A program made the position numbers and the translations under genes. The notes beneath the pieces are model-generated. The model searched no databases. It had not been told where the DNA came from and saw only the letters and a list, made by a program, of their open reading frames with translations. Of a stretch of DNA of 64,000 nucleotides, positions 53,548 to 63,316 are shown piece after piece; the stretch's first letter is position 1, and every line of letters begins with the position of its first letter. This stretch comes from Subtercola boreus. Its GTDB lineage: Bacteria; Actinomycetota; Actinomycetes; Actinomycetales; Microbacteriaceae. The stretch spans positions 310,001 through 374,000 of the forward strand of contig NZ_NBXD01000007.1 of NCBI RefSeq assembly GCF_003399645.1. The letters run 5' to 3'.

Positions 53548-55530
53548 ATGTTGAACTCTTCGGGGCGGGCCATCCGCCCGCGTCACATCGCGGGCGCGGT
53601 CACAGCCGCTGTCTGCCTGGTCGGGCTGTCGCTGGTGGGAACGAACACCGCCTCTGCCGCCGACCGCGTGGACTTCGACGGAGCCGTCCCCGCCTGGGCC
53701 GTCTCCGCGAATGATGCCGGTGCCGCGGCCGCAGACACGAGTGTGGAGGGCGAGATCTTCCTGCCGCTGCGGGATGCTGCGGGAGCGGCCGCTCTCGCAA
53801 CCGCGGTATCGACGCCGACCTCGCCGACGTACAAGCAGTTCCTCACCCCCCAGCAGTGGATCGCGAAGTACTCGCCGACCCAGGCCACCTCGGATGCGGT
53901 CGTCGCCTATCTGAAGGCAGCCGGGGCATCCATCACCGCTGTTCCCGACAGCCGCCAGTACGTCGTGTTCCGTGCGAACGTCGCGCAGGTCGACGCGGCG
54001 TTCGGCACCGAGCTGCACAGCTACTCCATCGCCGGCGCGACCCTCGTCGCCCCGTCGACGGCACCCTCCCTCCCGGCCTCCCTCGCCTCGCAGGTCTCGG
54101 CGGTGAGCATCGACCAGGGCCGAACCCTCAACCACCCCGATCTGGTCAAGCCCGACAGTGAGCCGGCGGGCAGCAGCAGCCAGGCGCAGTCGAAGCTGGT
54201 CGCGCCGGCGGCGACCCCGGCCATCGTGACGCCCTGCTCGAACTACTGGGCACAGTTCACCGTCACCGCCCCCGCGGCCTACGGCCAGACCCAGTTCCCC
54301 ACGGCGAACTGCGGTTACACGCCCCGACAGATCCGCTCGGCCTACGGCCTGACGCCGAACGTCAACACCGGTGCCGGCCAGACCGTCGCCATCATCGACG
54401 CGTACGCCTCGCCGACCATCCGTGAGGATGCGAACACCTACTCGGCCCAGCTCGGGGAGCCCTCGCTCGCCGGACTGTTCACGCAGGTCGTACCCGACCC
54501 CAGCGAGTTCACCGACATCGACCTGTGCGCCGGCCCCGCCAACTGGCAGGGCGAGCAGACGCTCGACGTCGAAGCCGTGCACGGTGTCGCTCCGCGGGCG
54601 AACATCGTCTACGTGGGTGGAACGAACTGCGACGCCGGCATCGACGTCGCCATGTCGAAGATCCTCGACAACAAGCTCGCCACCATCGTGAGCAACAGCT
54701 ACGGCAACATCGGCGAGGCTGTCTCGCCCGACCTGGTGCGCGGCGAGGAGAACATCTTCACGCAGGCCGCCGGCGAGGGTATCGGCCTCTACTTCTCCAG
54801 CGGTGACAACGGTGACGAGGTCGCAGCCCTCGGTTACGCCTCGCCCGACTACTCGGCCTCCTCCCCGCTCGTCACGAGCGTCGGCGGAACCAGCCTCGCG
54901 GTCGCGAAAGACGGCTCGTACCTGTTCGAGACCGGATGGGGCAGCACGGGTGACCAGATCCTCAACACCAACGGCAAGCTCTCGCTGGCACAGCCGCTCC
55001 CCGGCACCTTCCGCTTCGGCGCCGGTGGTGGCGTGAGCGCCCTGTTCAAGCAGCCGGCGTACCAGAAGGGCACGGTTCCGACCGCGCTGGCGAAGGGTAT
55101 GCGAGTGTCTCCGGATGTCGCGGCCGTCGCTGACCCGTACACCGGGTTCCTCATCGGCCTGCGTCCCATCACCGACGACACCACGCTGGCGACCGGCCCG
55201 TTCGAGAATTCCTCGATCGGTGGGACCTCCCTGGCGTCACCGGTCTTCGCCGCGCAGATGGCGCTCGTTCAGGCGGGCACCAAGACGACGATCGGGTTCG
55301 CGAACCCGCTGCTGTACTCGGTCAACAAGTCCAACCCGCAGGTGTTCCGTGACATCGTTCCGCAGAATCCGCAGAAGGCGCTCGTGTTCACGAGCCCCTC
55401 GACCGGCATCACGCGGCTCATCACGCTCGACACCGACACCTCGCTGAAGACCGCGAAGGGGTATGACGACGTCACCGGTATCGGCAGCATCGACGTGAAC
55501 AAGGCGATCGCCTCGGGCGCGGTGAAGTAG
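53548..55530 (+). CDS. S53 family (sedolisin/kumamolisin-type) exported serine protease
   Basis: The product has 660 residues. A signal peptide (about 1-40, ending NTASAA) and a pro-kumamolisin activation domain (about 65-190) precede the catalytic domain. Catalytic residues are visible: Glu and Asp in GEQTLDVEAV (spacing four, near 336 and 340), oxyanion Asp in YFSSGDNGDE near 419 and the serine in GGTSLASPVF near 561. The calcium site is at the C-terminus: RDIV near 605 and GYDDVTGIGSIDV near 640. These acid-active endopeptidases are secreted and self-processing. A strong terminator follows. The last 90 bases recur at 60455, marking a duplication. Confidence 0.92.
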   Translation: MLNSSGRAIRPRHIAGAVTAAVCLVGLSLVGTNTASAADRVDFDGAVPAWAVSANDAGAAAADTSVEGEIFLPLRDAAGAAALATAVSTPTSPTYKQFLTPQQWIAKYSPTQATSDAVVAYLKAAGASITAVPDSRQYVVFRANVAQVDAAFGTELHSYSIAGATLVAPSTAPSLPASLASQVSAVSIDQGRTLNHPDLVKPDSEPAGSSSQAQSKLVAPAATPAIVTPCSNYWAQFTVTAPAAYGQTQFPTANCGYTPRQIRSAYGLTPNVNTGAGQTVAIIDAYASPTIREDANTYSAQLGEPSLAGLFTQVVPDPSEFTDIDLCAGPANWQGEQTLDVEAVHGVAPRANIVYVGGTNCDAGIDVAMSKILDNKLATIVSNSYGNIGEAVSPDLVRGEENIFTQAAGEGIGLYFSSGDNGDEVAALGYASPDYSASSPLVTSVGGTSLAVAKDGSYLFETGWGSTGDQILNTNGKLSLAQPLPGTFRFGAGGGVSALFKQPAYQKGTVPTALAKGMRVSPDVAAVADPYTGFLIGLRPITDDTTLATGPFENSSIGGTSLASPVFAAQMALVQAGTKTTIGFANPLLYSVNKSNPQVFRDIVPQNPQKALVFTSPSTGITRLITLDTDTSLKTAKGYDDVTGIGSIDVNKAIASGAVK

Positions 55531-55548
55531 CACTCCACCCGCAGCATC
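55457..55548 (+). repeat. Direct repeat, copy 1: 3' end of the S53 gene
   Basis: This stretch is repeated at 60455-60546 at a constant distance of 4998 bases with only two differences, both silent third-codon changes (gac to gat, acc to act). It covers the last 24 codons of the protease gene and 18 bases beyond the stop. Confidence 0.92.
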
Positions 55549-55560
55549 GCAGCATCGCAC

Positions 55561-55602
55561 GACGGATTCCCGCGGGGCCTCTGGAGCCCGCGGGAATCCG
55601 TC
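55561..55602 (+). terminator. Strong terminator of the S53 gene
   Basis: GACGGATTCCCGCGGG and CCCGCGGGAATCCGTC form a perfect 16-base stem with a 10-base loop, 30 bases after the stop. The second copy of the region at 60455 lacks this hairpin but keeps the sequence after it. Confidence 0.85.
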
Positions 55603-55630
55603 GTTAACGCCCGCCCGCGCTAGAGGTTCT

Positions 55631-55659
55631 TTGACAGGGGAGCGCGAACGGAGTAGACC
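55631..55659 (+). promoter_or_regulatory. Probable promoter of the unknown exported-protein gene
   Basis: A perfect -35 TTGACA (55631-55636) is followed after 17 bases by TAGACC (55654-55659) as a weak -10. A six-codon open frame (55674-55694, product MNKHRL) with its own GAGGGG site lies in the leader just before the AAGGAG site of the main gene. Confidence 0.5.
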
Positions 55660-55709
55660 AGAACGAGGGGAACATGAATAAACATCGCTTATGAGCGAAG
55701 GAGAAACCC

Positions 55710-56333
55710 ATGTTCGAGAGCAAGCAGGCATATTCAGTAGCGGCGATTGTCGCGCTGGTAGCGGCGGCGAACTCGATGCCGGTATCGGCATCGAGTTCAG
55801 CTGACGCCTCCACTCAGCCAGCCACGACACCACCACAGGTTGCGCGAATGACCTTCCGTTATGACCCGGTGATTGCAGCGGCCCACGGTTATGAGGTGAG
55901 AACGGATGACGACGGTTACGCGTATGCCGTTCCCGCGGGTACTCCGAAGGGCAGCATGAGGGGCGCGACGCCCCCGGCGCCGACCGCAGCAGTTCATGAA
56001 GGCGCCGCGGATGTGACCGTCACGGGCGACTGCGGCACGGCTAGCCTGACCTTTACCTCGAAGTCGCACTTCACGACGAGCTATGTCATCTTTCCGCAGT
56101 GGGGTTTCGCCCTCAGCCACACCTGGCACGTCGCAGTGCATTCGAGCATCGACGCGGCATCGTTCAATCTGGACGGCGCGGCTCCGCCACTGAGCCAGGG
56201 GTGGCAGGGTGAACGAGACATCGACGTGCAAGCTCTTTCGGGCCAGCTCCTCTCGGGCGTCGCTGGTGGAACAACCACAACGGTTCTGGGCGAGTGTGTC
56301 GCTGCTAGCCCGACCGACTCGATCGTGTATTGA
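55710..56333 (+). CDS. Unknown exported protein
   Basis: The product has 207 residues and I recognise no family. The first about 28 residues look like a signal peptide (KQAYSVAAIVALVAAANSMPVSA), followed by an Ala/Thr/Pro-rich linker. The body has DDDGYAYAVPAGTPKGSMRG, a likely disulfide pair (Cys in GDCGTAS and in VLGECVAAS) and several Phe/Trp/His-rich strands. Codon use and GC are a little lower than the surroundings. AAGGAG precedes the ATG. The next gene follows within nine bases, so the two are probably functional partners. It lies inside the block bounded by the protease-end repeats. Confidence 0.65.
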   Translation: MFESKQAYSVAAIVALVAAANSMPVSASSSADASTQPATTPPQVARMTFRYDPVIAAAHGYEVRTDDDGYAYAVPAGTPKGSMRGATPPAPTAAVHEGAADVTVTGDCGTASLTFTSKSHFTTSYVIFPQWGFALSHTWHVAVHSSIDAASFNLDGAAPPLSQGWQGERDIDVQALSGQLLSGVAGGTTTTVLGECVAASPTDSIVY

Positions 56334-56341
56334 GGAGCATC

Positions 56342-56953
56342 ATGGCTGAAGCCACAATGATGGGTACCTTCCACCAGGGCCGGTCGGCTCCTTACACGCC
56401 CTTCTTCACGCCACCGTTCAACGAGGCAGAGGTGCTGAAGCTGGGGCGTCCAGTGGGGCATATCGACTCCGACGTTCTGCGACTGAGGGGGTACTCGATC
56501 GAGTCTGTGGATGGAACCCCCGATCTCATCGATGCGGCCTATTGCCCCAGGCAATGGCAGGAGTTTCTGCCCCACGTGTCAAGTTCATCTGTGCGGACCG
56601 GCTTTGTTCCGGATGGCTCTCACTCAGACGAACGTGAACGTCGAGCTCGCGTCCAGCTCCTTGCGCACGCCACCGCGCATATCTGCAATACTCACCCCTC
56701 GTGGGAGCCGATGACGGGAAGAGCAGGATTCCTGGCCGAGAGGGAAGAGTTGAGTGATGCGCTCCTCGCAACTCCGGTGTTCGCGGCACTGATCCTGCTC
56801 GGCGGTAAGCCCATCGAGGTGCAAATGTTCGATCATCTCGGGGAGCGCTTCGCGCTGCTTCCTCCGCTCGAGCACAGCCTCATTGTGACGATCGCCGGCC
56901 CACCCGAGACTTTCGACAGCACCTTCTCGCTGAGGCTCCCTTCGCCGGAATAA
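56342..56953 (+). CDS. Unknown cytoplasmic protein, coupled to the exported protein
   Basis: The product has 203 residues and I recognise no family. There is no signal or membrane segment. The first half has several Phe/Pro/Tyr (SAPYTPFFTPPFNEAEV), the middle LIDAAYCPRQWQEFLPHV, and the second half a helical stretch EREELSDALLATPVFAALILLGG followed by strands. GAGGAG lies five bases before the ATG; an in-frame TTG at 56330 would overlap the previous stop. As the downstream partner of an exported protein it could be an assistant, immunity or control factor, but this is only a guess. A hairpin follows. Confidence 0.65.
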   Translation: MAEATMMGTFHQGRSAPYTPFFTPPFNEAEVLKLGRPVGHIDSDVLRLRGYSIESVDGTPDLIDAAYCPRQWQEFLPHVSSSSVRTGFVPDGSHSDERERRARVQLLAHATAHICNTHPSWEPMTGRAGFLAEREELSDALLATPVFAALILLGGKPIEVQMFDHLGERFALLPPLEHSLIVTIAGPPETFDSTFSLRLPSPE

Positions 56954-56972
56954 GGCTCCACTGCTGCAAAAT

Positions 56973-57008
56973 GACAGACTCTCGCGGTCCTCAGGACGGG
57001 AGTCTGTC
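56973..57008. terminator. Bidirectional terminator
   Basis: GACAGACTC at 56973-56981 and its complement GAGTCTGTC at 57000-57008 form a perfect 9-base stem. It lies after the unknown gene and overlaps the end of the broken reverse-strand gene, so it can serve both. The GACAGACTCT word occurs again at 57633, beyond that gene. Confidence 0.65.
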
Positions 57009-57576
57009 TTCGGAGGGCCTGTCTCGCCTTGTCACCGTGCAGTGAGGGCCCACGAACGGTTCGCCGTCACGGTGATGACCGACGGACCAGAAGAAAGGGG
57101 GGACGGTCCCCGAATAGGCGCCGATCGCGTCCACGAGGAGGCCGTAGTCGAACGCTTTGCCCGTCTCCTCAATGATGGCGAAGTTCCCCGATCCATCGGT
57201 CGTGGCGCTGAGCTCGCCGGCCTTGCCGTCGGAGAGGAACAGGCTGTCGCCGTCTCCGGTCGGCGCAAGGGGCGCCGAAGGCGAGTCGGGCACGACAGTG
57301 ATCGACCAGTCACCGCTCGCCTGCACTTGCAGATTCACTCCTTCGGAGAGAGAGAAAGCCGAAGGCCGTCGTGCCCGAATACGACTCGATCGTGTTGACC
57401 AGCAGTTCCCCGGTCGACCCGTTGGCGGAGTCGAGAACGGGGACGGCGAAGGTGCCCTCACCCTTGTAGGTCGCGGTCGCGGTCACGGTCAAGATTGCGG
57501 CCGTCGCTCCCCGGGGTAGGGCGATGATGTCGTCTCCTCCGCCCGCTGCGGTTGTGGCGAAGGTGAACAGCTTCAC
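56991..57576 (-). pseudogene. Unknown Ala/Gly/Thr-rich protein gene broken at a CT repeat
   Basis: Reading from a GTG at 57576 gives VKLFTFATTAAGGGDDIIAL and further beta-rich sequence up to GFLSL, where the frame shifts. The continuing frame reads SEGVNLQVQASGDWSITVVP, then DGDSLFLSDGKAGELSATTD, and ends near 56991. Both parts look like one beta-sandwich protein of about 190 residues. The shift falls in a (CT)n run near 57345. Adding one CT unit would restore a single frame, so slippage is the simplest cause. Assembly error is possible. Function is unknown. A conserved GNFAIIEETGKAFDYGLLVD stretch may help a search. Confidence 0.65.
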
Positions 57577-57669
57577 GATGCCTGTGCCTCTCGATCTGTG
57601 TTGACTCTTGATAGACCCTCGTATCGGTAAAAGACAGACTCTGCCCGGCCAGATCAGTACTGTTGCCTC

Positions 57670-58035
57670 ATGACCACGGCCGAGCGGCAGACCGCCGACA
57701 GGAGCAGCGCGCGCACCACGGGCGCGCCTCCCCGGCTTCGCATCTCGCTCCCCGGCATCGCGGCTCTTGCGGGAGTGCAGCGACCGGTCGTCTCGGTGTG
57801 GCGCACTCGCGCATCCAACTATTCCTCAGGCGCACGGTTTCCCCTTCCCGTCGCCGAACGCGGGGGAGCAGAGCTGTTTGACGCGCACGAGGTCGCCGCA
57901 TGGCTCGTCGAAACGGGCCATGGGAACAACCCGAACGCACTCGGTGACATGGCAGCATTCGCGATGGCGCCGGAATTTGTACCCGGTGCCGCCACCGGCT
58001 TCGACCGGTCTGTGGCAGGAGCGCAATATGAGTGA
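57670..58035 (+). CDS. Small helix-turn-helix protein, first gene of the GIY-YIG cassette
   Basis: The product has 121 residues. The middle has a winged-helix/MerR-AlpA-like DNA-binding stretch ISLPGIAALAGVQRPVVSVW. A short FPLPV-type loop and FDAHEVAAWLVETGHGNNPN follow. The same layout is found at the N-terminus of some actinobacterial N6-adenine DNA methylases, so the protein may read DNA sites. No methylase motif (NPPY) is present. The ATG at 57670 lies within 10 bases of the previous AT-rich leader, with no strong Shine-Dalgarno. The stop overlaps the nuclease start by eight bases. Confidence 0.7.
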   Translation: MTTAERQTADRSSARTTGAPPRLRISLPGIAALAGVQRPVVSVWRTRASNYSSGARFPLPVAERGGAELFDAHEVAAWLVETGHGNNPNALGDMAAFAMAPEFVPGAATGFDRSVAGAQYE

Positions 58036-58993
58036 GACAGGACCTCAGCTCCGGTTCACTCGGTTCGATGTGTCGGAGCTCGGCGTTCCGTCGCTGCTGT
58101 TCACTGACCCGACCGCGCTGACCGGTATCTACATTCTCGAGTTCGGAAACGGCTTTCGGTACGTCGGTAAGACGGTCAACATCATTTCGCGCAGCGCGAC
58201 GCATGTTCGGCGCCACGGGGATGTCGTCGCCATCAACTTCGCTCCGTGTTCGAAAGTCGATCTGGACTTTTTCGAACGCCAGACGATCCGGGCGCAGGAG
58301 GCAACGTTCGATCTTCGGAACAAGTTGCTCACCTCCTTGCCCGGGGGAAAAGACACCATCGAGATCGAAGTGCGCGAAGGGGTCTCTGCGGCGCTACCGT
58401 GGCTGCGGTCTGTGAGACGCCGCGCCGAGCCGGTGTTGGGCAAAGCCGGTCGTTCGCCGAAGCTCTCGCGTTTGCGTCAGCGCGATGACTACGAGCAGCT
58501 CACCCAGGCCTTGGCCGTCTATATCGACGAGACAATTCCCGACCCGAATCGCACGGCGGGGGTTCTCTGGTCGATTTCAGTTCTTCCGCGAACAAGCGGT
58601 GGGCGAGTAGTCACCCTCAACTGCGGTGGACTCGAGGCGATGTGGGCTGCTGACGATGTGGAGAATGGCAAGCCTGTCGTCACGGTCTCCCTGAATCTTG
58701 CATCCAGCAATGAGATCGGTGATGAGAACGAGGAGGAGGATAGCGACGAGTCTGAGACGTTCGGCATCGTGGATGTCGCCGAGGTCCAGTATGGACAGGC
58801 TCTCGTGACTACAGTTCGTCTGGAATCCTGGTCTGCTTTCGAGCACCTCATTCGTGAGCCGACGATCGCAGAAGCCGCATATCGGCTCAATACTCAGATG
58901 ATGAGGCAGGGGAAGAACCGCTACCGGCGGTTTCACGATGGGCCCTTCGGTCAAATCCTTCTGGATCGTGCGTCTCGCAGGGGGCTGCAATGA
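58028..58993 (+). CDS. GIY-YIG nuclease domain protein
   Basis: The product has 321 residues. The nuclease core occupies about residues 33-90: GIYIL (33-37), RYVGKT (44-49), Arg55, His59 and Glu83 in LDFFERQTI, the expected order of GIY-YIG catalytic residues. A KLLTSLPGGKD stretch with Asn at 101 follows. The remaining about 210 residues are unlike named nuclease families and contain RRRAEPVLGKAGRSPKLSRL (basic), an acidic run DENEEEDSDESE near 240, and EHLIREPTIAEAAYRLN. It overlaps both neighbours, so it acts with them. Plausible roles are restriction, phage defence or mobile-element cleavage. Confidence 0.8.
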   Translation: MSETGPQLRFTRFDVSELGVPSLLFTDPTALTGIYILEFGNGFRYVGKTVNIISRSATHVRRHGDVVAINFAPCSKVDLDFFERQTIRAQEATFDLRNKLLTSLPGGKDTIEIEVREGVSAALPWLRSVRRRAEPVLGKAGRSPKLSRLRQRDDYEQLTQALAVYIDETIPDPNRTAGVLWSISVLPRTSGGRVVTLNCGGLEAMWAADDVENGKPVVTVSLNLASSNEIGDENEEEDSDESETFGIVDVAEVQYGQALVTTVRLESWSAFEHLIREPTIAEAAYRLNTQMMRQGKNRYRRFHDGPFGQILLDRASRRGLQ

Positions 58994-59808
58994 ATCCCGC
59001 CTCGTTCACCCTCTCGCGATCGTCCTTCGGCTCCCACTCCATCGGAAGGCCCGACGCGCTGGGTGGACAACTCGAGTGGTTCTGGGCCGTACCGGGTGTT
59101 TTTCGCGCTCTGGCTTCACCTTCATCGGGGGAGGCGGTGCCAGCGCTACCTGTGAGCGGCCACCCACACGAACAGTCGCTCGGATACTGGGGTGCGCTGC
59201 ACTAGATCCTGCTGCGAAGGCTCGGGTGGTCCCGCCCCGATCGGGGTCTCAGGTGGTGGTATGAGAACGGGAAACCGAAAGACGATCCCACCCTGGGGCT
59301 TGTTGCAGAGGTGTGGGATGCTGACGGTGCGTTGGATATCTACCTAGCGTGGCTCTTACAGAACCAGTTCGCCTTTGATCTGAAGAAGCCCCGTGTTACT
59401 TGGGCAGATTCATCAGCCAGTTCGGCTGTGCCCCGGGAATGGGAAGTTTGGTTGGACCGCTTTCAGTCATCGGCGGACGCCGGGTCGTTCCACGATTTTG
59501 CGCTGTCCGGCGGATGGGATCCGCTTCACCTGAGCGGCCACCTCGGCGAGACGGGCAGCCCGGACGTCAACTCCCGGCTCTTTCGCGACGGAATTTCGAA
59601 AACAAGTGGCGCATTCATAACGTCGACGATGGACGCTTGGTACACGGATCTGTCGGCCAAGGCAACTGATCTCAAGATGATCGGAACGCACTCCTGGAAA
59701 GTCGACGTTTTCGTAAAACCGGTTGGTTTTCTCGGCACGTTTCGAAGGTCGGCGCAAACCGGTCTGTGGTTCGCGGGGCGTCACCGGTACCACTCGGCAG
59801 GAAATTAA
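58990..59808 (+). pseudogene. Unknown third cassette protein split by an in-frame amber codon
   Basis: The ATG overlaps the nuclease stop (ATGA). The frame reads 71 codons, hits TAG at 59203-59205, then stays open in the same frame for 200 more codons with normal-looking protein (RRLGWSRPDRGLRWWYENG, then GALDIYLAWLLQNQFAFDLK, to TGLWFAGRHRYHSAGN). An intact protein would have about 272 residues. I recognise no family; it is Trp-rich and hydrophilic with no membrane segment. A point mutation, a read-through or a sequencing error would each fit. A GTG at 59311 could start a shorter separate protein. Confidence 0.65.
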
Positions 59809-60003
59809 TGCCTACCTGGTAGTCAGACTGCGATCGCAGGGTGACACAAAGAGGCTTCCGTCGCGTTTTCGTACTATCTCGATAGAGACAACTAAGGCGG
59901 AGCTCCCGAGACCGGTGTCGTCGGCGAGGGAGCGGAGGCGGTGAGCGGTTTTGAAGAGGCCATTGACTTCGCCAGTTGGGTACACCGGGCTCTGCAATGC
60001 CCC
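59809..60003. other. No supported gene
   Basis: Short open frames run on both strands, but none has a convincing start or family pattern. A reverse-strand stretch at 59812-59997 (SLADDTGLGSSALVVSIEIV) could be further decayed coding DNA. Base composition is lower in GC than the neighbours, as in the rest of the block. Confidence 0.5.
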
Positions 60004-60450
60004 TCAGGGCTTCAGCTCGAGATTCAAAAGGCGCAGCATGAGCGATGAGAGGCCAGATTCGAGCTCATCCACCCGCCGCTCGTCTTCCTGCAGGCTGGAG
60101 ATGAAAGCTCTCAACGGACATCTGGCACTGTCGATCTGAGCGTGCTCGACGGCTTGCAGCGCCAACACCCGGCGCTTGAGCCTAGCGAAAGCCCGAGCCG
60201 GCCCTGGTGGAGGAGGATCGAGGTTGCCATCTCGATCGCATCACGGCATCCAATGAGGGCACGGCGCTCGTCGTCGAGCTTTTCTTTATGCAATTGTTCG
60301 AGTAGTTCCTGATGCGTTCGATGGACTGCTGGCGCTAGTGATCGGCATAAGCGCTAACACCGACCGCGACTGCCATGAGAACGAGCGGCGCGGCGATCGT
60401 CAACGCTCCTGCGCTCGCGATGGCCAGACCCGCAGTCGCCGCGGAACCGC
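60004..60450 (-). pseudogene. Decayed reverse-strand gene with membrane segment and coiled coil
   Basis: Read from right to left, three pieces in different frames join well. The first is hydrophobic (TAGLAIASAGALTIAAPLVL), the second begins HQELLEQLHKEKLDDERRAL and continues GCRDAIEMATSILL, and the third is helical (LQEDERRVDELESGLSSLML) with a stop at 60006-60004. Frame changes fall near 60330 and 60180. Together they look like about 150 residues of a membrane-anchored coiled-coil protein. The intact N-terminus is cut at the boundary with the protease-end repeat. It is probably dead. Confidence 0.6.
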
Positions 60451-60454
60451 CCGC

Positions 60455-60565
60455 AGGGGTATGACGATGTCACTGGTATCGGCAGCATCGACGTGAACAA
60501 GGCGATCGCCTCGGGCGCGGTGAAGTAGCACTCCACCCGCAGCATCCGTCGTTTAACGCCCGCGA
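60455..60565 (+). pseudogene. Direct repeat, copy 2: relic of an S53 protease 3' end
   Basis: The first 92 bases match 55457-55548 with two silent differences and keep the GYDDVTGIGSIDV calcium-site coding and the TAG. After GCAGCATC the copy jumps straight to CCGTCGTTTAACGCCCGC, which resembles the sequence just after the terminator of copy 1, so the hairpin is deleted. No upstream protease sequence is present. It marks the right edge of the inserted or rearranged block. Confidence 0.88.
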
Positions 60566-60656
60566 CTTGACTCCCGGGCCTGCGACACGCATGCTCGGGA
60601 GAGTCGGCACATCGGTGTGCAGCGACATCACGAACGAATTCAAGGGGGATTTCATC

Positions 60657-61985
60657 GTGCAAAGGAACAACATCCACAGGCGCGTCTTCATGGTCGCGGC
60701 GGGCTGCATCACGGCTGCAGCACTCGGGCTGACGGGAGCCGTCTCGGCGTCGGCGGCCCCGTCCGCGAGCCAGGTCGCCCTGGGCGGCAGCCCGCTACGC
60801 AGCAGCGTCACCGCCGTGGCCGTCGTGCCGCCGGGCCCGCCCACGGTGCTCTACACCGCGATGTTCCCGGGCCGCGACAGCGAGATCTTCCTCGAGACGG
60901 TGCAGGCCGGTTCGTACGGCAGCGCGAAGCCCGAGCAGGTCAGCTACGTCTACGACCTGAACGACGACAACGTGTGGCGAAAGCCGGTCATCCCGGTGTC
61001 GCCCGGAGCGACCGAATTCTCCATCCTCGCTCGCGACGGAATCGTGGACGGCCAGGTCAACACCATCCGGCTCAAGGCGCGTGCGGTCATCGGCGGCAGG
61101 GTCTACGACAGCGCTCCGAGCGCACCGGTCAGCATGTACGTCTTCGGCAACATCGACTTCGACTACCAGCTGAAGACGGTCGTCGCGGGCGATGCCGTCA
61201 CGTTCTCGTGGGATGTGCGCTCGATCCTTCACGGGCAGCGCGCGACGTTCGAGTTCACCGACAGCGTGACCGGGCAGTACAGGCCCGTCGATGCGGTGGG
61301 CAGTGTCACGGTCAGTGCCGGATTCGGGGCGACAGTCACGGGGTCGCTCCTCGTGACGGGTGAGAGCGTCGACTCCGACTCGCGCTTCTTCTCGACGACG
61401 GCAACCACCGGGCCCGCCAGCAGCGGCGCACCCTTCACCCAGACGCCCGCGCCGACCATCGTCGGTACGCCCCTCGTCGGATCGGTGCTGACCGCCCGGG
61501 CGGGAACCTGGAAGCCGCTGCCGGTGTCGTTCAGCTACCAGTGGAACCGCAACGGCACACCCATCGCGGGCGCGACCTCCGGGCAGTACACGCTGGTGCC
61601 CGACGATGCCGCCGCCACGATCACCGTGAGCGTCACCGGACGTACCCCGAGCGGCACGAGTGCCACCCTCCTGTCGCAGCCCACGGCGGCCGTCGCGGCG
61701 AAGGTCATCACCGGTGATCTGGGCTTGCTCTTCGGTACTGCGGCACTCGGCCAGACGCTCTTCGTTCCCACTCCGAACCTGAACGTGGCCGGAGCCGCGA
61801 TCTCGTACCAGTGGCTGCGCAACGGCATCCCGATCGCCGGCGATACCCGCTCGCGCCACACTGTCACGCGGGCGGATGTCGGCTACGGCCTCTCGGTCAC
61901 CGTCTCCGCCCGCAAGACGGGCTACACGGGCCTGACGGAGACGTCGTACCAGACGGATCCGATTGCACCCGCGGCCGCCGACTAG
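60657..61985 (+). CDS. Exported protein with two YQW-type Ig-like repeats
   Basis: The product has 442 residues. The start is the GTG at 60657 behind AAGGGGG; the longer open frame upstream is not favoured. A signal peptide covers about residues 1-37 (RRVFMVAAGCITAAALGLTG, ending SASAAPS). The middle (about 50-275) has beta-rich strands of unknown family. Two repeats end it: SYQWNRNGTPIAGATSGQY near 312 and SYQWLRNGIPIAGDTRSRH near 405, each followed by an ITVSVTG/LSVTVSA strand. Such repeats occur in actinobacterial surface and carbohydrate-related proteins. No sortase motif or enzyme site is visible. Confidence 0.75.
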   Translation: MQRNNIHRRVFMVAAGCITAAALGLTGAVSASAAPSASQVALGGSPLRSSVTAVAVVPPGPPTVLYTAMFPGRDSEIFLETVQAGSYGSAKPEQVSYVYDLNDDNVWRKPVIPVSPGATEFSILARDGIVDGQVNTIRLKARAVIGGRVYDSAPSAPVSMYVFGNIDFDYQLKTVVAGDAVTFSWDVRSILHGQRATFEFTDSVTGQYRPVDAVGSVTVSAGFGATVTGSLLVTGESVDSDSRFFSTTATTGPASSGAPFTQTPAPTIVGTPLVGSVLTARAGTWKPLPVSFSYQWNRNGTPIAGATSGQYTLVPDDAAATITVSVTGRTPSGTSATLLSQPTAAVAAKVITGDLGLLFGTAALGQTLFVPTPNLNVAGAAISYQWLRNGIPIAGDTRSRHTVTRADVGYGLSVTVSARKTGYTGLTETSYQTDPIAPAAAD

Positions 61986-62020
61986 AGAGCATCCACGTCA
62001 TCGGCCGGGGGAGCGGCCTC

Positions 62021-63316
62021 CTAGAAGTGGGTGGTGCCGTAGACGGGGGCGGTCGGCGCCAGGAGGCTGCGGAGGCGGAGCGCCGCGCCGGGGGTGAGTT
62101 CGGTGAGCTGGGCGGCGGCCGCGAGGGTGAGGGGGTCGACCCCGCCGAGGTAGAGCGAGCCCAGGGCGGGCGCGTCGAGCGCGACGTCGGGGGCGGCCGC
62201 GTCGTCGCGGGTGACGGTGGCCCGGCCGTCCGCGATCTGCAAGCGGAAGGTCCCCTCCGCGAACCCCAGCGGGTCGGTGACGGCGAGCGTGATCCTGCCT
62301 GCGGCCGCGGCTGCGTAGCCCCGCGCCTCGAAGGCGGCGACGACATCGAGTACGCGGATCCAGAGCCAGTCCTCGACGCCGGTGTGTGTGAGCGCGCGCC
62401 AGTCGGCGATGGCCCAGCGCAGGGGGTCGTCGGCGGGCGCTGTCTCGCAGACGACGCGATCGATGAGGTCGACGGATGCGAGAAAGGCCCACAGACCGAG
62501 GTAGGCATTGTCGTCTGCGGCGACGAGGTCGAGCACCTCGAGCGTCTGCGGATCGGAGTCCCACCCCTTGAACACGTACGAGACGTAACCGTCGAGCGTT
62601 CCGGCCTCGGAGTAGTGCACCGCGGCATAGACCCCGAGGTTCGCCTCGGCCTTCTCGGTCGCCCCGCCGGAGATGCGGCTCCAGGTCGCAGCATGCCGGT
62701 CCACAGAACCGGGATGTGCGGCGTGGAAGGCCGCGAAGACCGACGGACCGAGGGTGACCAGGTCGGCCGCCTCGACCAGTTCCGTTCGCCCGGTCGGCTC
62801 AGCGAGCATCCGGAACCGCGAATCGGTACGCAGCGCGGAGTGACTGACCCAGGTCGCAACCCCGAAACCGAAGCGTCGATAGATAGTCGCCTCTGAGACC
62901 GTGAGTGCCGCAACCGGGATGCCTGCGGCCGCCGCAGCGCTGAGGTTGTCGGTCATCATGCGGCGGAGCAGCCCGTTGCGGCGATGGGTGGGGCTGACGG
63001 TGACGTTCGACACAAGATGCACCGGAATGAGCGCGGGGCCGCCGACGTTCAGCGTGCTCGGGTACGACGCGAAGGTGGCGACCGGGTCGGATGCGGCGTC
63101 TGCGGTACGCAGATACACCCCGGTCAGCTGTCGCGCGTCTTGAGCGAGGTTGCCGGCGGTGCGGGCGAGCTGCTCAGGGGTTGCGCGGTCGTCGTGGAAG
63201 CCGCGGCGCTCGGCCTGGATCCAGGCGCCGGTCGCCGGCTCGGCCTGTGCTTGGTCGCCGCCCTCGATGACAGCGGCGGGAAAGGTGCGGAAGTGGTAGT
63301 CGTCGGGGGAGCCCAT
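62021..63316 (-). CDS. Eis-like GNAT family N-acetyltransferase
   Basis: The product has 431 residues. The first GNAT domain carries the acetyl-CoA motif VSPTHRRNGLLRRMMTDN near residue 108, the second is degenerate, and an SCP2/sterol-carrier-like C-terminal domain follows (ADGRATVTRDD, LGSLYLGGVDP). The chain ends in phenylalanine, whose carboxylate is catalytic in Mycobacterium Eis. Eis proteins acetylate amines of aminoglycosides and peptides and can lower drug sensitivity. The gene stands alone and converges on the Ig-repeat gene. Confidence 0.87.
   Translation of the reverse strand: MGSPDDYHFRTFPAAVIEGGDQAQAEPATGAWIQAERRGFHDDRATPEQLARTAGNLAQDARQLTGVYLRTADAASDPVATFASYPSTLNVGGPALIPVHLVSNVTVSPTHRRNGLLRRMMTDNLSAAAAAGIPVAALTVSEATIYRRFGFGVATWVSHSALRTDSRFRMLAEPTGRTELVEAADLVTLGPSVFAAFHAAHPGSVDRHAATWSRISGGATEKAEANLGVYAAVHYSEAGTLDGYVSYVFKGWDSDPQTLEVLDLVAADDNAYLGLWAFLASVDLIDRVVCETAPADDPLRWAIADWRALTHTGVEDWLWIRVLDVVAAFEARGYAAAAAGRITLAVTDPLGFAEGTFRLQIADGRATVTRDDAAAPDVALDAPALGSLYLGGVDPLTLAAAAQLTELTPGAALRLRSLLAPTAPVYGTTHF

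Follow-up and report, generated by a model that had tools for sequence, protein, structure and literature searches.

Type I R-M systems with an extra first gene are found in genomes of the same family as Subtercola boreus and on plasmids of Arthrobacter, Paenarthrobacter and Streptomyces, and their genes follow the order gene 1, hsdM, hsdS, cargo in some of them, and hsdR. The GIY-YIG superfamily of nucleases is described as taking in homing and repair enzymes (PMC1564403), and N6-methyladenine-dependent type IV enzymes of the wH-GIY-YIG type are portrayed as single proteins in which a winged helix is fused to the nuclease (PMC11037411). An initial annotation of the window analysed here, a stretch of 64,000 nucleotides of S. 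boreus (contig NZ_NBXD01000007.1, positions 310,001 to 374,000), proposed a coupled cassette of an HTH gene, a GIY-YIG nuclease gene and a third gene (Table 1) that would act as one system, possibly in phage defence. Our analysis suggests that a horizontally acquired defence island, situated at the 3′ end of an S53-type protease gene, has probably decayed to leave this locus. What it holds is most likely a surviving nuclease of an unstudied family amid the remains of a DNA-restriction (anti-phage) locus that has broken down. Decay of a known system can yield a cassette that resembles a new coupled system; single-gene searches, comparison of the fragment with full-length relatives, the border genes and the GC step served as checks against such an artefact.

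Table 1. Positions of features in the window and, where an L number is given, in fetched loci
Feature	Position	Strand	Remarks
Direct repeat, left copy	55442..55548	+	3′ end and stop of S53-type protease gene
Two ORFs in direct-repeat block	55710-56953		first secreted-looking
Decayed TM2-domain-type gene, 3′ half	57035..57558	-	~residues 171-349 of relatives
First gene ("HTH")	57670..58035	+	121 aa; N-terminal ~100-residue remnant of type I R-M operon gene 1
Nuclease gene	58028..58993	+	321 aa; two-domain GIY-YIG, frame intact
Third gene	58990..59808	+	in-frame TAG at 59203-59205; relatives without interruption exist
Direct repeat, right copy	60440..60546	+	repeat partner
Gene 1, examples	L135:4255-6366; L139:4437-6512; L057:5983-8046		first gene of type I R-M operons
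Cargo genes between hsdS and hsdR	L135:9222-10253; L136:8677-9888; L137:1997-3175; L140:9982-11187		variable
Second nuclease-family copy	L039:563-1417		own genome, contig 6
Hhe/PDC-S37-like giant protein	L064:4511-14739		near nuclease family
Hhe/PDC-S37-like giant protein	L103:3-4040		near third-gene family

The cassette and its first gene

The overlaps of 8 and 4 bases between the three frames, all in one direction, were confirmed. The low GC content noted for the cassette holds for the whole (0.611 compared with 0.676 for the window) but not for the HTH gene itself (0.678). Only the nuclease and third genes are low (0.592 and 0.600), with a step from 0.678 to 0.592 at the HTH/nuclease junction. 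A promoter scan, which is uninformative for this organism, found none. The overlaps in one direction and the low GC common to the nuclease and third genes speak for a genuine three-gene system, in which the HTH protein would regulate, the GIY-YIG nuclease would cut foreign DNA and the third protein would be a partner or an immunity factor; so does the occurrence of the nuclease and third-gene families near defence genes. However, the first gene is elsewhere part of a much longer protein and has a GC content unlike the other two, a stop lies inside the third gene, and no searched relative locus holds a second trio member. For the last point, blastp was run with the three queries and already known relatives on the ORFs of fetched loci; these made up five sets (22, 10, 40, 6 and 9 loci) that share some members, and each locus came with ~1.5 to 9 kb of flanking sequence. 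Whichever of the three genes the relatives belong to, only the window's own loci contain more than one member. In this sample the three genes are thus found together nowhere else, and the claim that they form a unit is not supported. Titles and abstract starts of open-licence papers likewise yielded no description of the trio, although the families may have been described elsewhere. Given the missing second members, the truncated first gene and the interrupted third gene, the three-gene system was rejected, and we consider it very improbable.

No Pfam match passes for the first gene (there is a chance-level PAM2 match), and its HTH label goes back to weak PADLOC matches, at 5.7e-5 to a type I methylase model (N-terminal part) and at 2.2e-4 to PDC-M06B. 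A single-sequence structure model of the protein was discarded as fold evidence because its pLDDT of 40.8 is too poor, and a search of the query against solved structures gave chance-level matches only. The proposed kinship with restriction-methylase operons was borne out: the relatives are the first genes of type I R-M operons. They occur in 12 of 298 other genomes of the family and on five plasmids. The open frames around the 12 family matches span 365-856 aa, 11 of them exceeding 630 aa. Wide neighbourhoods were examined for nine of these chromosomal matches and for four of the five plasmid records. In the nine chromosomal loci gene 1 encodes 656-838 aa, with that of L141 ended at 610 aa by the contig end, and in all eight loci where the contig continues it is directly followed by an hsdM-type gene. 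These eight genes have a common N-terminal sequence; the identity of hsdM was tested by Pfam in one operon (L135), where N6_Mtase matched at 1.1e-110 together with HsdM_N, and a downstream gene contained HSDR_N, SWI2_SNF2 and T1RH-like_C. The annotation of three plasmid records (NZ_CP014575, NZ_CP015733 and NZ_CP109103) shows the same operon order, and in plasmid AP014720 the operon genes are annotated in pieces. In many relatives full-length gene 1, of ~690 aa and without Pfam match, heads a type I R-M operon, whether this lies on a chromosome or on a conjugative-typed plasmid. Between hsdS and hsdR these operons can carry variable cargo genes, which encode a 5′-nucleotidase family protein in L135 and look NTPase-like by eye in the others.

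In the alignment with these relatives, similarity of the window protein covers approximately residues 22-100 and ends soon after; judged by this, what the first gene encodes is the truncated start of a much longer protein. When 11 operon proteins of three relatives were searched against 55.0-62.5 kb of the window, no significant match to hsdM, hsdS or hsdR was found (best hsd E 0.52), and the three genes of a type I R-M system are accordingly not recognised there. The genome itself has one N6_Mtase match, which lies on another contig (E 1e-13) and covers the profile partially.

Borders of the block and site of insertion

To the left of the cassette lies the 3′ half of a TM2-domain-type gene, without its TM2 part and detected as three matches in three frames. 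A gene of this type faces the gene-1 operon in five of the nine loci (L135, L138, L139, L142 and L143), with a small ORF in between in L138 and a TM2 domain recognised by Pfam in L135, and was not seen in the other four. Both marks of a type I R-M remnant, the gene-1 N-terminus and the facing TM2-type gene, are therefore present in the window.

The direct repeats said to bound the block were recovered, with 93% identity over 107 nt and an identical right part. The product of the protease gene contains a Pro-kumamolisin activation domain according to Pfam, and we take this protease family to be S53. In one congener locus (L121) a protease gene of 80% identity is followed ~130 bp later by an acetyltransferase gene, so positions 55533-62022 are extra in the window. 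The other six of seven congener loci match on the acetyltransferase side only and are thus uninformative on the insertion. Overall, the suggested horizontal or foreign origin is supported. A plasmid origin of the block was rejected since its DNA had no match in the plasmid collection.

With the protease 3′ end and stop, the repeat resembles the attachment-site duplication of integrative elements; among the scanned ORFs of the block, Pfam recognised no recombinase. The block also contains two further ORFs, which have no Pfam match at E≤1 and no relatives among the fetched loci.

The nuclease and third-gene families

The catalytic residues attributed to the nuclease were confirmed: G33, I34, Y35, Y45, G47, R55, H59, E83 and N98 are invariant in 30 aligned members. 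Further residues, namely W181, P187, T189, R193, E203, N223 and Y255, are kept in the C-terminal part of these members, where a half of ~180 residues is without Pfam match. PF01541 is matched by 26 of the 30 members (E≤0.01), and the window nuclease alone scores 0.068, which does not pass this cut-off. Its predicted structure (pLDDT 87.5, pTM 0.73) matched 2lwf, which we take to be a GIY-YIG-like structure, with probability 1.00 (TMt 0.56, E 0.027), and several viral proteins named GIY-YIG, also with probability 1.00; the whole model had no match in the PDB at E≤0.001. The nuclease profile found only 1zg2 among solved structures (E 0.0014, over 29 residues of the GIY-YIG part). Taken together, the residues, the PF01541 matches of the family and the predicted fold place the window nuclease in the GIY-YIG superfamily.

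Across the order, 395 other genomes were searched for the nuclease and 20 had a relative, with a weak or partial match in three. A profile search with the nuclease alignment gave 33 loci in 33 named genomes; ten of their contigs have the same length as contigs in the order-wide set, with which they therefore partly overlap. A contig search with the single nuclease sequence found nothing. By its sequence the window nuclease is an intact member of a sporadic actinobacterial two-domain GIY-YIG family. Plasmid matches comprise two records, both from Rhodococcus, of which one was examined. A second copy on contig 6 of the same genome has 35% identity over 199 residues and a shorter C-terminus, and adjoins a protein with a weak TerB match. 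A phage origin of the nuclease was rejected, as it had no match in the phage collection; the scan of viral contigs retrieved no relative of either the nuclease or the third gene.

The initial annotation also suggested looking for enrichment near known defence genes, and the nuclease family does have an excess of N6_Mtase and GmrSD_N matches within 10 kb. Eight of 66 marker matches lie at this distance compared with 0.55 expected across 33 named genomes, under a null of uniform placement without a control family, while defence genes cluster in general and two of the eight (G704, G706) represent one syntenic locus. Three matches are within 3 kb (0.19 expected) and nine within 15 kb (0.81 expected). 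For this count, 38 nuclease matches were reduced to one per genome by omitting five second or partial matches, and all 40 N6_Mtase and 26 GmrSD_N matches served as markers, some of them being pieces of one gene or adjacent. In 25 of the 33 genomes no such marker lies within 10 kb of the nuclease. Individual loci show HsdM 68 bp downstream of the nuclease in Arthrobacter cryoconiti (L063), GmrSD_N abutting it in Arsenicicoccus (L064) with an Hhe/PDC-S37 protein downstream, GmrSD_N nearby in L024, and NOV_C adjoining it on the examined Rhodococcus plasmid (L058) with a methyl-directed restriction enzyme 2 kb further. Vsr is found near the nuclease, pointing away, in Clavibacter (L060), and AbiD-like genes in L076 and L079. 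Neighbours at many other loci appear ordinary by eye.

These ordinary-looking neighbours and the sporadic distribution (20 of 395 other genomes in the order) would also agree with a DNA-repair, recombination or selfish mobile enzyme residing in variable regions, with the cassette as a random pile-up, and homing and repair enzymes are counted among the GIY-YIG superfamily (PMC1564403). Such a role is disfavoured by the excess of nearby N6_Mtase and GmrSD_N genes, by the Arsenicicoccus and A. cryoconiti neighbourhoods and by the missing matches in the phage collection and viral contigs, and we regard it as rather unlikely. It concerns the functional step only and can hold together with decay of the locus. 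For the nuclease itself, a role in defence has roughly even chances.

Relatives of the third gene number five in 298 other genomes of the family and six in 395 others of the order. The third product had been read as one open frame, which an in-frame TAG in fact splits; tblastn matches of relatives cross this codon in a single frame, and the protein is probably not made in full. Eleven relatives were examined (L050-L054, L100-L105), and chosen neighbours were scanned with PADLOC in six of these loci, leaving out L054, L101, L102, L104 and L105. Defence genes were found in all six, a chosen set without a control: an Old-like neighbour in L050, where a second neighbour had no PADLOC match; PglZ, BrxL, a cytosine methylase and an MzaA/MzaB-like protein in L051; HmaC/DUF499 overlapping the relative by 8 bases in L052; a type I REase 48 bp upstream in L053; a UvrD/GajB-like helicase in L100; and Hhe/PDC-S37 at ~2 kb in L103. 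Relatives are thus found beside or near defence systems that are unrelated to one another (BREX, type I R-M, HmaC/DUF499, Old-like and Hhe-like), and the family resembles an accessory gene that attaches to various defence loci. A giant Hhe/PDC-S37-like protein occurs near the nuclease family in one genome and near the third-gene family in a different one. Five members of the third-gene alignment (A2) matched nothing in PADLOC and nothing convincingly in Pfam (one match at 0.072), the query had chance-level matches only among solved structures, and a search of the plasmid collection with the relative from L050 found no match. Neither the nuclease nor the third-gene family has an assigned function in the libraries searched, that is, Pfam and PADLOC for the families and also NCBIfam for the window proteins only. 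As both families recur near defence genes without such an assignment, they are reasonable candidates for phage-resistance tests. The suggestion of a phage defence system stands in regard to the defence context but not to a system of three genes.

Probable decay of the locus and comparison with known systems

The left part of the locus retains the order seen in related type I R-M loci, with an outward-facing TM2-type gene followed by gene 1 of the hsd operon. Both bear marks of decay: the TM2-type gene is frame-broken and lacks its 5′ half, and gene 1 is cut after ~100 residues. The intact nuclease gene and then the stop-bearing third gene follow directly after the gene-1 fragment. A deletion or recombination would have brought two accessory defence genes up against the 5′ end of an hsd operon, and translation of the nuclease may as a consequence now be coupled through the 8-base overlap. 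By analogy with its superfamily, the nuclease would be a metal-dependent endonuclease using the GIY tyrosine that alone cuts incoming DNA, its C-terminal domain serving recognition or regulation. The HTH fragment would be at most a residual DNA-binding peptide.

Some observations weigh against decay. An intact nuclease frame that neatly overlaps the fragment would also be expected from selection for a coupled unit, and the TM2-type neighbour is absent in four of nine gene-1 loci. An intact type I operon that includes the third gene as well as the nuclease did not turn up, and the order in which the events took place was accordingly not seen; the two genes may never have been part of that operon. 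Moreover, the stop and the frame breaks could partly be sequencing errors. We still consider decay the probable history of the locus. More tentatively, the two-domain GIY-YIG proteins could constitute an undescribed family of stand-alone restriction nucleases of Actinobacteria, with a C-terminal domain that senses DNA modification or structure. The window member would then have acquired the leader of a type I R-M operon that is dead and would work alone or together with the HTH remnant.

Among candidate phage-defence genes in PADLOC, one PDC-S14 model matches 8 of the 30 members of the nuclease family (best 5.9e-6), a similarity that may be confined to the GIY-YIG domain, and does not match the window nuclease. 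With the GIY-YIG superfamily (PF01541) the latter shares the catalytic residues and the predicted N-terminal fold, but its C-terminal half sets it apart, as does the lack of a PDB counterpart for the whole model. Similar to the wH-GIY-YIG type IV enzymes, as far as these are described (PMC11037411), a GIY-YIG nuclease occurs alongside a putative DNA-binding domain; unlike there, the putative HTH of the window comes from a different protein family and is encoded by a gene fragment of its own. Pfam recognised no winged helix in the 321-aa nuclease, and neither the structure model nor its matches gave the C-terminal fold an assignment. Compared with type I R-M systems that begin with gene 1, the window has kept the N-terminal ~100 residues of this gene and the facing TM2-type left neighbour, whereas the rest of gene 1, hsdM, hsdS and hsdR are gone and the GIY-YIG nuclease and third gene stand in their place.
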